The notes under the pieces are model-generated. The model saw only the letters and a list, made by a program, of their open reading frames with translations. It made no database searches and was not told the DNA's origin. Of a stretch of 64,000 bases of DNA, positions 3,940-32,413 are shown piece after piece (the first letter of the stretch is position 1; the number at the start of each line of letters is the position of its first letter). Origin of the DNA: Calothrix anomala FACHB-343 (GTDB taxonomy: Bacteria; Cyanobacteriota; Cyanobacteriia; Cyanobacteriales; Nostocaceae); assembly GCF_014696435.1 (NCBI RefSeq), contig NZ_JACJQG010000049.1, forward strand, positions 1-64,000, in the 5' to 3' direction. The position numbers and the translations under genes were made by a program.

Positions 3940-5139
3940 ATGACACACCCATTCCCCCCACCAACCATCAAATCCTTTGAACGCCTACAAGCCTCCGATG
4001 GACTATTAATAAATGCCGAGCGCTGGAGTAAAGCCCATGAATACCACCGACTGCGACAAAACACCCACTATCAATGCTTAAACCAACCCGGAATAGTCTG
4101 CGGTTTAGGCGTGCGCGTCATTCCCGCACCCCGCCAAGTTGAAGCAAAATATCGAGATGGACGCTGGGTACAAATTCAACCAGGAATCGCCATCGATGTA
4201 GCCGGAAACTTAATTGTAGTCCCCAAAGCATACGACTTTCCCATTGATTTAGAAGTAGTTAGTACCGAACCAATTACAATTTACTTAGTCGTCAGTTACG
4301 TAGATCCAGACGAACTAAGACGCGGACAATCAAGAGATATTGTCCAAGAAACATATCGCATCGACCAAAAAAATTCCACCCTAGAAAGTCACGAAATCGA
4401 ACTTTGTCGCATCCTCTTACAACCAGGACAAAACACCATTACTCAACCTGCGGATGTCTTCTTTCCTGGTTACCAAAACATTGATTTACGCTATCGCCGC
4501 CACGCCCAAGCAAGACCACAAACAAATATTGCGATCGCGCAAGTAAATCATAGCGATTCTGAATGCGCCCGAAACTTTTTCAACCTTGCTTATTTACTCC
4601 AATCCATCGAACATCTCTACCCATCCTTACGGGGAATTGATGAACCAGGACAAGTATCTTTAAGCGAAAACATTCAAGACTACGATTTACTTTATTTAAC
4701 AGGACAGGAAGCACTATCTTTTAACAGTATTGAATTTGAATCACTGAAAAATTATTTAAATTTTGGTGGCATACTTTTAGTAGATGCGCCGCAAAATGCT
4801 AATGCTTTAATTGACAGTACCCACGCCTTAGCCCAGCAACTAGAAAATCCCTTAAAACCTTTAGAAGAACTACAAAGAAGTCATCCTTTACGCACCAAAC
4901 CCTTCTTATTTGCAGCTTTACCCAATGTCAATCAAAACTTCATTCGCCTGTTAATTGGTGGGGGAATTATCTTAGTAATTGGTGATTTAGCCAGCGCTTG
5001 GGGATTAGATAGAGAATTGAATTTACCCAGAGTAGCTATTAGAACCGCCCAAGAATTTGGCATTAATATTTTGCACTATGCTTGGAGAAGGCGACAGTAT
5101 ATTGGCTTACAGCAAGAAGATAATACAGGTAAATGGTAG
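3940..5139 (+). CDS. CIS-associated protein with C-terminal DUF4159 domain
   Basis: A 399-residue protein with two visible parts. Residues 1-165 form a beta-rich region (GVRVIPAPRQVEAKYRDG, then PGIAIDVAGNLIVVPK) that I cannot assign to a named family. Residues about 195-395 resemble DUF4159, a Rossmann-like domain (DYDLLYLTGQEALSF, then LKNYLNFGGILLVDA, ending NILHYAWRRRQYIGL). There is no signal peptide. It is the last same-strand gene of the injection-system segment, 66 bases after the tail gene, so it may be a structural accessory, an anchor or a cargo-related protein; none of these is shown. The DUF4159 call is moderately sure, the role is unknown. Confidence 0.6.
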   Translation: MTHPFPPPTIKSFERLQASDGLLINAERWSKAHEYHRLRQNTHYQCLNQPGIVCGLGVRVIPAPRQVEAKYRDGRWVQIQPGIAIDVAGNLIVVPKAYDFPIDLEVVSTEPITIYLVVSYVDPDELRRGQSRDIVQETYRIDQKNSTLESHEIELCRILLQPGQNTITQPADVFFPGYQNIDLRYRRHAQARPQTNIAIAQVNHSDSECARNFFNLAYLLQSIEHLYPSLRGIDEPGQVSLSENIQDYDLLYLTGQEALSFNSIEFESLKNYLNFGGILLVDAPQNANALIDSTHALAQQLENPLKPLEELQRSHPLRTKPFLFAALPNVNQNFIRLLIGGGIILVIGDLASAWGLDRELNLPRVAIRTAQEFGINILHYAWRRRQYIGLQQEDNTGKW

Positions 5140-5218
5140 AAGGAAAGGGAAGGGAAGGAGGACAAGGGGGACAAATGTCAACTTACAGCAGTTTTTACCT
5201 ATTTGAACCACATCTATC

Positions 5219-5282
5219 GTAGGGGCACGGCACCAACAATCTTTTGGTACATACAATAATTTTACTGATGCCGTGCCCCTAC
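5219..5282. repeat. palindromic element with GTAGGGGCACGGCA ends
   Basis: Perfect 14-bp inverted repeats (5219-5232 and 5269-5282) enclose a 36-bp loop. It belongs to the same style as the GTAGGGGCGGGTT hairpin at 36586-36648. No target duplication is visible. Confidence 0.8.
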
Positions 5283-5333
5283 AGCGTGGTCTATTTACCT
5301 GAAAATAGCTGTAACGCAAAACCCAGCTACCGC

Positions 5334-5449
5334 AAGGAACTGAAGTTCCTTGCTAATAACCAAAGTCATCTAAAGATGACTAAATATCCTCCAAATCTTG
5401 AGTCTACTTTAGTAGACTTGGGCTATTAGCCTGAGAATTCATTCTCAGG
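5334..5449. repeat. repeat element of four consecutive palindromes
   Basis: Four near-perfect palindromes of 18-20 bp follow one another: AAGGAACTGAAGTTCCTT (5334-5351), AGTCATCTAAAGATGACT (5364-5381), AGTCTACTTTAGTAGACT (5401-5418) and CCTGAGAATTCATTCTCAGG (5430-5449). The array fills most of the gap between the DUF4159 gene and the convergent comB-like gene. Read as RNA it would give four hairpins, so it may also end transcription. Confidence 0.85.
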
Positions 5450-5547
5450 CGGGTGACAAAGCTAAGACAGAGGCTATTTTTAACTTAAGTTGATACGTCT
5501 GAGCGCTGCCGTGACCTTACTATTATACCTTAATAAGTTGAAAAACA

Positions 5548-7126: not shown

Positions 7127-7148
7127 ACCCCTAAATTTACTTAGGGGT
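7127..7148. terminator. hairpin downstream of the PsiE-like gene
   Basis: ACCCCTAA (7127-7134) and TTAGGGGT (7141-7148) form a perfect 8-bp stem with a 6-base loop, 17 bases after the stop codon. There is no T-run, so its role as a terminator is inferred from position only. Confidence 0.4.
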
Positions 7149-7199
7149 AAGTAAGTCGGTGAGAAAAATTTAATGTATGTGAAGAAATACAAATTAACC

Positions 7200-7276
7200 G
7201 TAGGGTGTGTTATGCCGTAGGCTAACGCACCTTGAATTGTTGACTGTGCGTTTACTCCGTGAGACAACACACCCTA
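7200..7276. repeat. GTAGGGTGTGTTA palindromic repeat
   Basis: GTAGGGTGTGTTA (7200-7212) faces an imperfect reverse complement (7264-7276), with GGCTAACGCACC inside. The same core occurs in the larger element at 19622-19779, and a degraded fragment lies near 9614. Confidence 0.75.
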
Positions 7277-7331
7277 AATTTAAATTTCTTAACATAGTTT
7301 TAACTATTAGCGCCGACTTACTTATTACTGA

Positions 7332-8645
7332 TTAATTTGATGTAGATATTAACCCAGTTTGCTTATAAATAGGGCATACTATCTTTTTAATCTCTGGTAG
7401 CTTTCTCGCAAAATACAACGCGCTGAGAGCACAACAAACACCTCCAAATAATAAAGCATTTGCTACACCAATGTGACCTGCCAAACCTCCAAAGAATAAA
7501 TTACCAAAAGGTAATATCCCTAAAAATCCTGTTGTGAATATACTTGTAACTCTACCTCGTTTATTTTCATCAACAATGATTAATTGAATAAAATTGCTAA
7601 TAGCAATTAAACTCAATGTATTAGTCATGCCAACAATAAAAATTAAGATAAGGCAAAGTTCTAAACTAGCAGAACGTGAAAAGAATATCAGACTTAAACC
7701 TAAAATCAAAGTAGAGTTAGCTACAACTTTCTCTAAGCCAGTAACTTTCTTTCTAAGTATTAAGAAAAGTCCAGCAACTATCGAACCCAATGCCGAAGCT
7801 GTCATAATATAGCCCATAGTTTCGGCATTACCATTTAAAATATCAGTTGTGAAAATTGGCATCAAGTTAACATAAGTCATAATCATAAAACAAATTATGA
7901 CTTGCATAAGTAATACATATTTAATAGGTAAAAATTTATAAGTATATACAAAACCCTCCTTTAAATTTTGCCAAATGTGCGGTTTTTTAGTGGAGTCGTT
8001 GTTAGCAAATGACTTAATTCGCACGGTTAAAATTGCGGAAATAAAGGGGAAATAGCTAACGCTATCAACCAAAAAGCAGGATGCTGCGCCTACTTTCGCC
8101 AGTAATAATCCTCCCACCATAGGGCTGATAAATTTAGCTGTATTAATTAAGAAAGAATGAATGGAAATTGCGCTATAAGTATCAGCTTTATTATCGACAA
8201 TCCGAGGAATAGCTACTAACCGTGCAGGTAAATCAAAAGCTTTGACAATTCCTTGGAGTATCCCAATTACCAAAATCCAAATAAAATTAATTTCCCCAGT
8301 CAGACTCAAATAAGTTAACGCACCGGATAAAATAATCGATACTAACTGAGTAGCGAGTAAAACATATCTGAGGTTCCAACTATCTAATAAAACTCCTACT
8401 ATCGGTGTCAATACTAAGCCTGTTGCTTGATTGGTAAATCCAGCAATACCTACTAATACTGCTGAATTAGTTAGTTGATAAACCATCCATACTAAAGCAA
8501 ATTGTGTCATCCAAGAGCCAAAAAAAGATACACTTTCTCCGATGACAAAACAGCAAACATTTGCAGATTTCAGCGCTGGGGGAATCTGGAAAAAACCAAA
8601 CTTCAGTTTGTGTTTTTTAGAATTTGCTTGATGAATTTGCGCCAT
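7332..8645 (-). CDS. MFS exporter (EntS/MFS_3-like)
   Basis: About 437 residues with roughly 12 membrane segments. The opening (FVIGESVSFFGSWMTQFALVWMVYQLT, in part) is typical of the EntS/MFS_3 exporters, as is the DLPARLVAIPRIV stretch after the fourth segment. Members move siderophores, macrolides or other small molecules out of the cell by proton antiport; the substrate is not predictable here. The ATG at 8645 is preferred over the one at 8675 because an AAGGA motif lies 7 bases before it. It is followed by 1.2 kb without genes, so it is transcribed alone. Confidence 0.75.
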   Translation of the reverse strand: MAQIHQANSKKHKLKFGFFQIPPALKSANVCCFVIGESVSFFGSWMTQFALVWMVYQLTNSAVLVGIAGFTNQATGLVLTPIVGVLLDSWNLRYVLLATQLVSIILSGALTYLSLTGEINFIWILVIGILQGIVKAFDLPARLVAIPRIVDNKADTYSAISIHSFLINTAKFISPMVGGLLLAKVGAASCFLVDSVSYFPFISAILTVRIKSFANNDSTKKPHIWQNLKEGFVYTYKFLPIKYVLLMQVIICFMIMTYVNLMPIFTTDILNGNAETMGYIMTASALGSIVAGLFLILRKKVTGLEKVVANSTLILGLSLIFFSRSASLELCLILIFIVGMTNTLSLIAISNFIQLIIVDENKRGRVTSIFTTGFLGILPFGNLFFGGLAGHIGVANALLFGGVCCALSALYFARKLPEIKKIVCPIYKQTGLISTSN

Positions 8646-31515: not shown

Positions 31516-31550
31516 TTGACAAAACTATTATTTCGATTATTCTAGAAATA
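31516..31550 (+). promoter_or_regulatory. promoter and candidate operator of the ArsR-ClpN gene
   Basis: TTGACA (31516-31521), 16 bases, then TATTCT (31538-31543) 6 bases before the ATG. The inverted repeat TATTTC/GAAATA (31529-31534, 31545-31550) spans the -10 and the start codon, which would suit autorepression by the encoded ArsR-type protein. The site is inferred from position and symmetry. Confidence 0.45.
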
Positions 31551-32413
31551 TGGCAATAAATAATGAAGACACAGCTCGCTATGCAGATATCTTTGCTGCA
31601 TTAGGATCAGAGCCACGTTTAGAAATTATGCGGTTGCTATTTGCGAGTTATCCAAATGGAATGACAGTAGGCGAGATTCAGGAAAAGCTGAAGATTCCCA
31701 ACTCCACCCTATCGCACCATTTGGAGAAGCTGAGAATTGAAGGATTAGTTAATAGCCGCAAAGACAAGCAATTTTTGTGGTATTCCGCCAATGCAGAGAC
31801 AATGGAAGACTTGCTGTCTTTTTTGTCTACAGGAAGAACAAAACGCGATCGCAATCTTGATGCAATCAACAATATATCCCAGCAGGAGGGGTTTATGTTG
31901 GAAAGATTTTTTGAATCGATTTTTGAAAAAATCTTAGGATTTACATCTAATAGATTCCACCTCAGAGGTTTTGAAAGATTCACCCAAAAAGCCTTGATAG
32001 CTATATCCATAGCGCAAAGTGAATCTCGTCGCTTAGGACATCGATACGTTGGTACGGAGCAAATTTTGCTAGGACTCGTTGGTGAAGGTAGCGGTTTTGC
32101 AGCACAGTTTCTTAACTCTGTAGGTGTTAACTTAGAAAATGCTCAAATTGAGGTAGAAAAAATCATCGGTAGAGGTCGGGGATTGACACCCCTGGATATT
32201 CCATTTACATCCAAAGCTCAGAAAGTATTACAACTAACGGTAGAAGAATCGCGCCAATTAGGTGTCAATTATATTGGCACAGAACATATTTTATTAGGTC
32301 TGCTCAAGGAAGGAGAAGTAGATAGAGAACCGGGAATAGCAATTAAAGTCTTACAAAATCTTGGAGTAGACCTTGCTTTATTAGAACAACGGCTGCGCAG
32401 GTCTTTAACGTAG
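31550..32413 (+). CDS. ArsR-type regulator fused to a Clp N domain
   Basis: 287 residues. Residues 8-90 form an ArsR winged helix ([25 protein letters not shown]). Residues about 140-285 are a ClpA/ClpC N-terminal double repeat ([17 protein letters not shown] and [16 protein letters not shown]). No AAA+ module follows, and no metal-binding CVC motif is seen in the DNA-binding part. The ClpN domain in Clp ATPases receives substrates and adaptors, so this protein may couple transcription to Clp proteolysis. A second, strong ribosome site (AGGAGG, 31884-31889) with ATG at 31895 sits exactly at the joint, so a ClpN-only product is possible. Confidence 0.8.
31884..31897 (+). promoter_or_regulatory. 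internal ribosome site at the ArsR/ClpN joint
   Basis: AGGAGG at 31884-31889 lies 5 bases before an in-frame ATG (31895, codon 116). It would give a 172-residue protein consisting of only the linker and ClpN domain. Confidence 0.5.

Follow-up and report, generated by a model that had tools for sequence, protein, structure and literature searches.

Among described systems, mycobacterial ClpC2 comes closest to the gene analysed here. According to the available text of PMC10030653 (Taylor et al. 2023), ClpC2 binds its own promoter, cyclomarin blocks this binding, transcription goes up, and the excess ClpC2 captures cyclomarin, so that the protein serves as an antibiotic sponge. The same text places the clpC2 palindrome 1-2 nt before the ORF, over the -35 and -10 elements and often repeated upstream, and suggests that the transcript is leaderless. 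In the available part of a further report from 2026 (PMC12913811), unfolded protein likewise relieves ClpC2 repression, and not every ClpC1-binding peptide does so. Another described feature of relevance is the inner start of clpB: as stated in the available text of PMC6168691, codon 149 of the E. coli gene, a GTG, is a conserved, in-frame start that yields a shorter protein.

The locus under study lies in a stretch of 64,000 nucleotides from Calothrix anomala FACHB-343, which is referred to below as the window. It is a fusion of an ArsR winged helix to a double ClpN domain. In total, 39 cyanobacterial fusions of this kind were found, and these fall into group A (31 genes from 30 genomes, the window gene among them) and group B (8 genes). 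As far as the available text on ClpC2 goes, in both proteins an additional N-terminal (dimerising) part precedes a ClpN that lacks an ATPase, and in both genes a palindrome covers the promoter beside the ORF in a leaderless layout, the transcript start being predicted for ArsR-ClpN. The first-pass annotation had known of no described system with this layout. That statement is not supported: mycobacterial ClpC2 is a ClpN-bearing autorepressor and sponge, and its operator adjoins a predicted leaderless ORF (PMC10030653, available text).

The same comparison, drawn from that text, revealed several differences. The N-terminal part of ClpC2 is a four-helix bundle, whereas that of ArsR-ClpN is, by sequence, an ArsR winged helix; the operator sequences differ; and own-promoter repression has been demonstrated for ClpC2 and is only predicted for ArsR-ClpN. 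DNA binding by ClpC2 is assigned to its ClpN, whereas ArsR-ClpN has an ArsR domain. Since the ClpN of ClpC2 is itself thought to bind DNA, the coupling in ArsR-ClpN cannot be the same as in ClpC2. In addition, ArsR-ClpN differs in having a conserved inner start, which would release ClpN alone. ClpB, as described in the available text, resembles ArsR-ClpN in that a gene of the Clp family has a second, conserved start in frame; however, the second start of ClpB removes the N-domain, whereas that of ArsR-ClpN would isolate it. Synechocystis sll1957 has an ArsR winged helix as in the fusion, a likeness at the domain level (PMC4010505, available text).

No description of an ArsR-ClpN fusion was found in the open-access literature, subscription papers lying mostly outside that scope. 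The fusion is genuine and of more interest than a chance pairing of domains would be, but a described system, ClpC2, already works similarly. Judged by its sequence and by this analogy, ArsR-ClpN probably works like ClpC2 while standing outside that family, and we propose that it represents a non-orthologous, convergent counterpart of ClpC2 with an added inner start.

Domains, operator and candidate sensor of the fusion gene

The features of the locus, given by their positions in the window, are as follows.

31516-31543, plus strand: promoter match, with -35 TTGACA at 31516-31521, a 16-nt spacer and -10 TATTCT at 31538-31543
31529-31550, no strand assigned: operator palindrome TATTTCGATTATTCTAGAAATA, overlapping the -10 element and touching the start codon
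31550-32413, plus strand: arsR-clpN fusion gene with an ATG start, full-length product of 287 aa
31583-31825, plus strand: ArsR/SmtB winged helix, residues 12-92
31826-31894, plus strand: linker, residues 93-115, hypervariable by entropy and by changes per column
31884-31889, plus strand: internal Shine-Dalgarno sequence AGGAGG, 5 nt before the inner ATG
31895-31897, plus strand: internal start codon ATG, codon 116, in frame
31895-31966, plus strand: amphipathic-looking, Phe-rich stretch of 24 residues (116-139), consensus M-F-E-x-F-[FL]-x-S
31895-32413, plus strand: predicted short product of 172 aa, comprising the Phe-rich stretch and the double ClpN domain
31970-32398, plus strand: double ClpN domain, residues 141-283

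An ArsR winged helix joined to a double ClpN repeat with no ATPase had been recognised in the first pass, and profile searches bore this out. In Pfam, HTH_5 matched the fusion ORF at residues 23-69 (E 4.7e-11) and Clp_N matched it as two stretches (E 4.8e-27); the part corresponding to the short product alone was also matched by Clp_N (E 7.8e-28). No AAA family was matched by Pfam in ORF 31550-32413, which stops after ClpN. The NCBIfam model HTH_metalloreg (NF033788) scored 70 bits on the window protein, with a cut-off of 55, and residues 49-62 of the ArsR domain showed no variation among the 9 sequences compared. Residues 141-280 matched the N-domain of chloroplast ClpC1 (5gui) with an E value of 1.1e-49, and the ClpN part shares 64% and 57% identity with two ClpC-like proteins of the same genome (open frames of 839 and 834 aa, respectively). 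Thus, the ClpN part of the fusion is a ClpC-type N-domain and not a diverged helical domain, a case for which the first reading had allowed. A single ArsR-ClpN fusion was found in this genome (9.24 Mb, G000).

The promoter match TTGACA-N16-TATTCT has 10 of the 12 consensus bases and stops 6 nt short of the first ATG. Within the window, four promoter matches were found against 2.8 ± 1.6 expected, which is not better than chance. The match is nevertheless taken to be more than chance because its layout recurs in relatives: the -35 element, the -10 element and the 6-nt distance, with a spacer of 16-18, were found by pattern search in 18 of the 31 group-A genes, window included. The usual promoter spacing would put the transcript start on the A of the first ATG (31550), and for this reason a leaderless mRNA is predicted.

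As initially noted, an inverted repeat lies over the promoter: the arms TATTTC (31529-31534) and GAAATA (31545-31550) overlap the promoter match. A TATTTC-N10-GAAAT-like palindrome, with small variations allowed, directly adjoins the first ATG in 27 of the 31 group-A genes (26 by pattern and L179 by eye). In L124, L178, L237, and L238, a palindrome copy is located 24-30 nt upstream, with a longer leader. Tandem operator-like palindromes were seen by eye in four group-A genes, namely L124 (G029), L179 (G154), L237 (G457), and L238 (G562), and recall the doubled operators reported for clpC2. Of three stand-alone cyanobacterial ArsR genes compared, L181 and L184 carry a related palindrome before the ATG and L188 lacks it. 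Since the site is present in two stand-alone genes, the operator palindrome may, by its sequence, be older than the ArsR-ClpN fusion.

A search of the own genome for the operator with up to three mismatches gave 3 matches, as against 3 in the reversed control. One was the promoter of the gene itself, with 0 mismatches; the other two, each with 3 mismatches, are intergenic and lie some 305 and 610 nt upstream of the nearest listed ORF start (L203 and L206), which is too distant for ordinary operators. A looser pattern gave one further match in this genome, also present in G006, and this match falls within a long ORF whose sequence resembles that of a histidine kinase. No second close copy of the operator at a likely promoter position was found in the own genome by the pattern search, which would miss weaker sites. 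The plainest reading of these sequences is that the fusion gene is mainly self-regulating, and ArsR-ClpN may have a small additional regulon.

All nine frames of stand-alone ArsR relatives contain an ECC cysteine pair, the fragment L193 included, whereas the window protein contains no cysteine in its 287 aa and has an added ClpN. A thiol metal sensor is thereby ruled out for the window protein and, since this signal is excluded, ClpN remains as the candidate sensor. ClpN is the docking part of ClpC. The residues F2 and F80 of ClpC1, which we take to correspond to F96 and F172 of ClpC2, have their counterparts in F141 and F219 of the window protein, and F occupies these columns in 21/30 and 26/30 group-A genes, respectively. 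The glutamates of the GTE motifs are kept in the window protein as E170 and E245, with E in 30/30 group-A genes. At the positions matching ClpC1 K85 and E89, the window protein has Q224 and Q228; in these columns the relatives have K in 27/30 and E in 24/30 group-A genes. On the sequence level, the groove residues of ClpN in the window protein are mostly retained. In the ClpC2-cyclomarin complex, F96 and F172 form the main contacts, and E181 and Q94 the polar ones (PMC10030653, available text).

The start codon at the joint

An AGGAGG 5 nt before an in-frame ATG (31895) had been reported to lie exactly between the two domains. The two sequence elements are present as described; however, the ATG is not at the edge of ClpN, as the 24 residues 116-139 intervene. 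The first-pass annotation had made conservation of this start a point to check, and it proved to be kept throughout group A: all 31 genes have a start codon at this position, which is ATG in 30 of them and GTG in one (L168). On the tree of 30 group-A genes, the codon changed once, from ATG to GTG, and the ten codons preceding it changed 7-15 times each. Other columns with a consensus Met showed 4, 1, 7, 10, and 9 changes on that tree, the single-change column being residue 27 in the ArsR domain. The mean number of changes per column was 10.5 for the linker, 3.4 for ArsR, 7.7 for residues 116-139, and 5.4 for ClpN; the linker is the least conserved part of the group-A gene, and conservation sets in at the inner start. 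A similar course was found for entropy in 19 group-A representatives sharing less than 80% identity: with gapless anchoring at the inner start codon, which raises the far-linker figures since linker lengths differ, it amounted to 2.3-3.8 bits at positions -24 to -5 and was lower at -4 to -1 (1.7-1.9) and for the start codon itself (0.30).

Pairing with the anti-Shine-Dalgarno sequence at the inner start had a mean of -8.11 kcal/mol in the 31 group-A genes. When the ten upstream codons were recoded synonymously, the value was -5.24 ± 0.37 kcal/mol, and 0 of 1000 recodings were as strong; the 19 representatives gave -7.44 versus -4.93 ± 0.49 when recoded, with 0/1000 as strong. Pairing at or below -6 was found at 22/31 inner sites versus 4/128 other in-frame Met codons and 982/8440 other codons; the sequences are related, so these counts do not represent independent trials. 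A separate run on 25 genes left the picture unchanged. The pairing is weak at 9/31 inner sites (L117, L165, L169, L172, and L234-L238), the weakest value being -0.5 in L237. Local mRNA structure at the inner start gave no clear signal (mean z 0.36, n = 19), and the region lay above the gene's average structure in 4 of these 19 genes. In the window sequence, a hairpin at 31876-31892 covers the inner Shine-Dalgarno site.

In group B, the counterpart of the inner start is GTG in L183 (G122, pairing -6.5) and TTG in L187 (G105, pairing -7.4), and the remaining six fusions have no start codon at this position. L191, also of group B, has an ATG elsewhere within the linker. Group B can be read as having lost the inner start or as never having possessed one.

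A second kind of regulator fused to ClpN was found in the XRE-ClpN genes of other cyanobacteria. Seven of them were recovered from 243 genomes (E 1e-55), and together with L125 and the shorter L130 the set comprised nine. Locus L125 belongs to G018, and L246-L252 belong to G247, G009, G248, G179, G035, G125, and G194, respectively. These genes resemble ArsR-ClpN in that an HTH is joined to ClpN and an ATG stands at the joint, the latter in 9/9 fusions; pairing there ranged from -3.0 to -10.3 and was -6 or better in 5/9. They differ from ArsR-ClpN in their Cro/C1-type HTH and in the C-terminal Uma2, a putative restriction endonuclease, that Pfam matched in L125, the one member analysed at full length. 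Because the XRE HTH belongs to another family than ArsR, the start at the joint is a recurring trait of regulator-ClpN genes. ClpC begins with MFERFT, and for this reason the joint Met of the XRE fusions may, as far as sequence tells, be a former ClpC start.

We consider it quite probable that the inner start of the fusion gene is used for translation.

Proposed mode of action and alternative explanations

The sequence itself shows that the domains are fused, how the operator is laid out, that the inner start is conserved and that ClpN keeps most of its groove residues; two products in cells, autorepression, a ligand and a sponge role are what we infer. Full-length ArsR-ClpN would be translated from the leaderless first start, dimerise via its ArsR part and occupy the palindrome over its own promoter. 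Its C-terminal ClpN would be the sensor for ligands of the ClpC N-domain, candidates for which are peptide toxins, adaptors of phage or host origin, and unfolded protein. Occupancy of ClpN would weaken DNA binding, as reported for mycobacterial ClpC2, and the derepressed mRNA would then give more repressor and, via the inner Shine-Dalgarno start, free ClpN. The latter, having neither the DNA-binding nor the dimerising ArsR part, would soak up the ligands of ClpC or compete for them. For this scheme as a whole, namely two proteins from one autoregulated mRNA with ClpN as the sensor and free ClpN as the sponge, sequence and analogy give about an even chance of being correct.

Part of the data could also be explained by a single product, a full-length autorepressor that senses ClpC ligands and in which the Met and the purine-rich stretch merely mark the structural start of a helix. 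Weak pairing at nine of the 31 inner sites would agree with this, the stretch after the inner Met is conserved as protein too, and the stronger constraint on ArsR than on ClpN (3.4 vs 5.4 changes per column) indicates that the full-length form clearly matters. However, the start codon has been preserved next to variable residues (-1 to -10), and its sole change was to a codon that is still a start. Moreover, the mean pairing exceeds what the encoded protein would demand, and the XRE fusions also have an ATG at the joint. We regard a single product as unlikely. The codon might instead persist without function, as the old start of a separate clpN that was fused to arsR via loss of a stop codon. 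Such an event would leave a start and a Shine-Dalgarno site at the joint, ClpC itself starts with MFERFT, and group B together with the weak group-A sites could represent ongoing decay. Against this, the start codon is still present in genes as little as 48% identical to the window protein (L180), whereas the linker beside it has been overwritten. We hold a functionless relic to be highly improbable.

Another explanation concerns the fate of the protein and not its number of products: through ClpN, the ArsR repressor, or proteins that partner it, would become Clp targets or adaptors, and the resulting turnover of the repressor would report Clp capacity. This would agree with the docking of ClpN in ClpC, known in general, and with the ClpC-like character of the ClpN in the fusion. 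Nevertheless, an isolated N-domain is generally expected to bind the ligands of ClpC and not the ClpC ring, and neither clp nor ars genes were seen as conserved neighbours among the 25 neighbour clusters listed. In our opinion, this explanation is quite unlikely.

If the proposed scheme of an autorepressor with a separately started ClpN sponge is true, actinobacteria and cyanobacteria each came independently to guard Clp with a docking-domain copy that induces itself. This would suggest that toxins of natural origin, or phage proteins, directed against ClpC are common beyond actinobacteria. The gene would then be a compact one-gene circuit that combines sensor, autorepressor and separately started sponge, and it could provide a reporter for compounds that bind the ClpC N-domain. 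A more far-reaching interpretation is that cyanobacteria have at least twice, with ArsR and with XRE, built a self-contained ClpC immunity gene: its autorepressor would use its own ClpN copy to detect toxins or phage adaptors that dock on ClpC, and an inner start on the same mRNA would supply free ClpN in large amounts as a sponge; we put this forward tentatively and hold it to be rather unlikely.

Distribution of the fusion and related loci

Among the 59 nearest genomes, own included, the full fusion was found in 9 (G000, G006, G018, G025, G027, G028, G029, G032, and G051). Its distribution is patchy within the genus: full copies are present in G000 and G006, and the best matches in G001-G005, G007, and G008 of the same genus are at the ClpC level only. 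In an order sample of 388 genomes, 39 matched a query of ArsR plus linker at E 1e-15 or better, a threshold that diverged members would escape. These comprised 21 group-A genomes (22 genes), 8 of group B, 9 with ArsR alone (one of them the contig-end fragment L193), and G024 with a broken gene. A class sample of 388 genomes, which overlaps with the order sample, gave 41 matches, including 8 of group A (three counted before) and 1 of group B (counted before); the other 32 have open frames of 124-233 aa, lengths that suggest ArsR alone.

Group B is distinguished by its linker and by a ClpN clade of its own (support 100/100), and 7 of its 8 members have an adjacent Cys pair at residues 92-95. On the ClpN tree, group-A ClpN separates from ClpC with low support (34/69) and the branches are long; therefore, no claim is made on one versus several fusion events. 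A wider contig scan gave at least 80 loci, and among the matches listed the titles were actinobacterial except for one Acetobacteraceae MAG. Seven of the 80 listed loci were read, and six of them are long ClpC-like frames with 345-911 residues past the match start; the frame of L050 extends to the contig end, and L057 is a ClpN frame of 154 aa. No ArsR domain was seen by eye in the seven loci read among the at least 80 matches listed. As for the neighbourhood of the fusions, pyrB-like genes occur at 8/36 loci and pyrH/speB-like genes at 7/36, the names having been assigned by reading sequences in 36 compared stretches of unequal length.

Several incomplete genes were also observed. In the group-A gene L234 (G683), the reading frame is lost within the first ClpN repeat, and ClpN continues in another frame; it is either a sequencing error or decay. 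In L122 (~7130-7870, G024), the ArsR-ClpN gene is frame-broken, with the joint and the inner start missing and the promoter palindrome still there. L123 (6335-6808, G017) is a lone ClpN part of an ArsR-ClpN gene with no preceding ATG, apparently located behind a methionine-aminopeptidase-like gene (named by sequence reading), and looks like a deletion remnant. Finally, G018 carries both ArsR-ClpN and XRE-ClpN besides a ClpN-only frame, L126 (~4750-5480), which has MFERFTEKAIKV and an additional C-terminal stretch.
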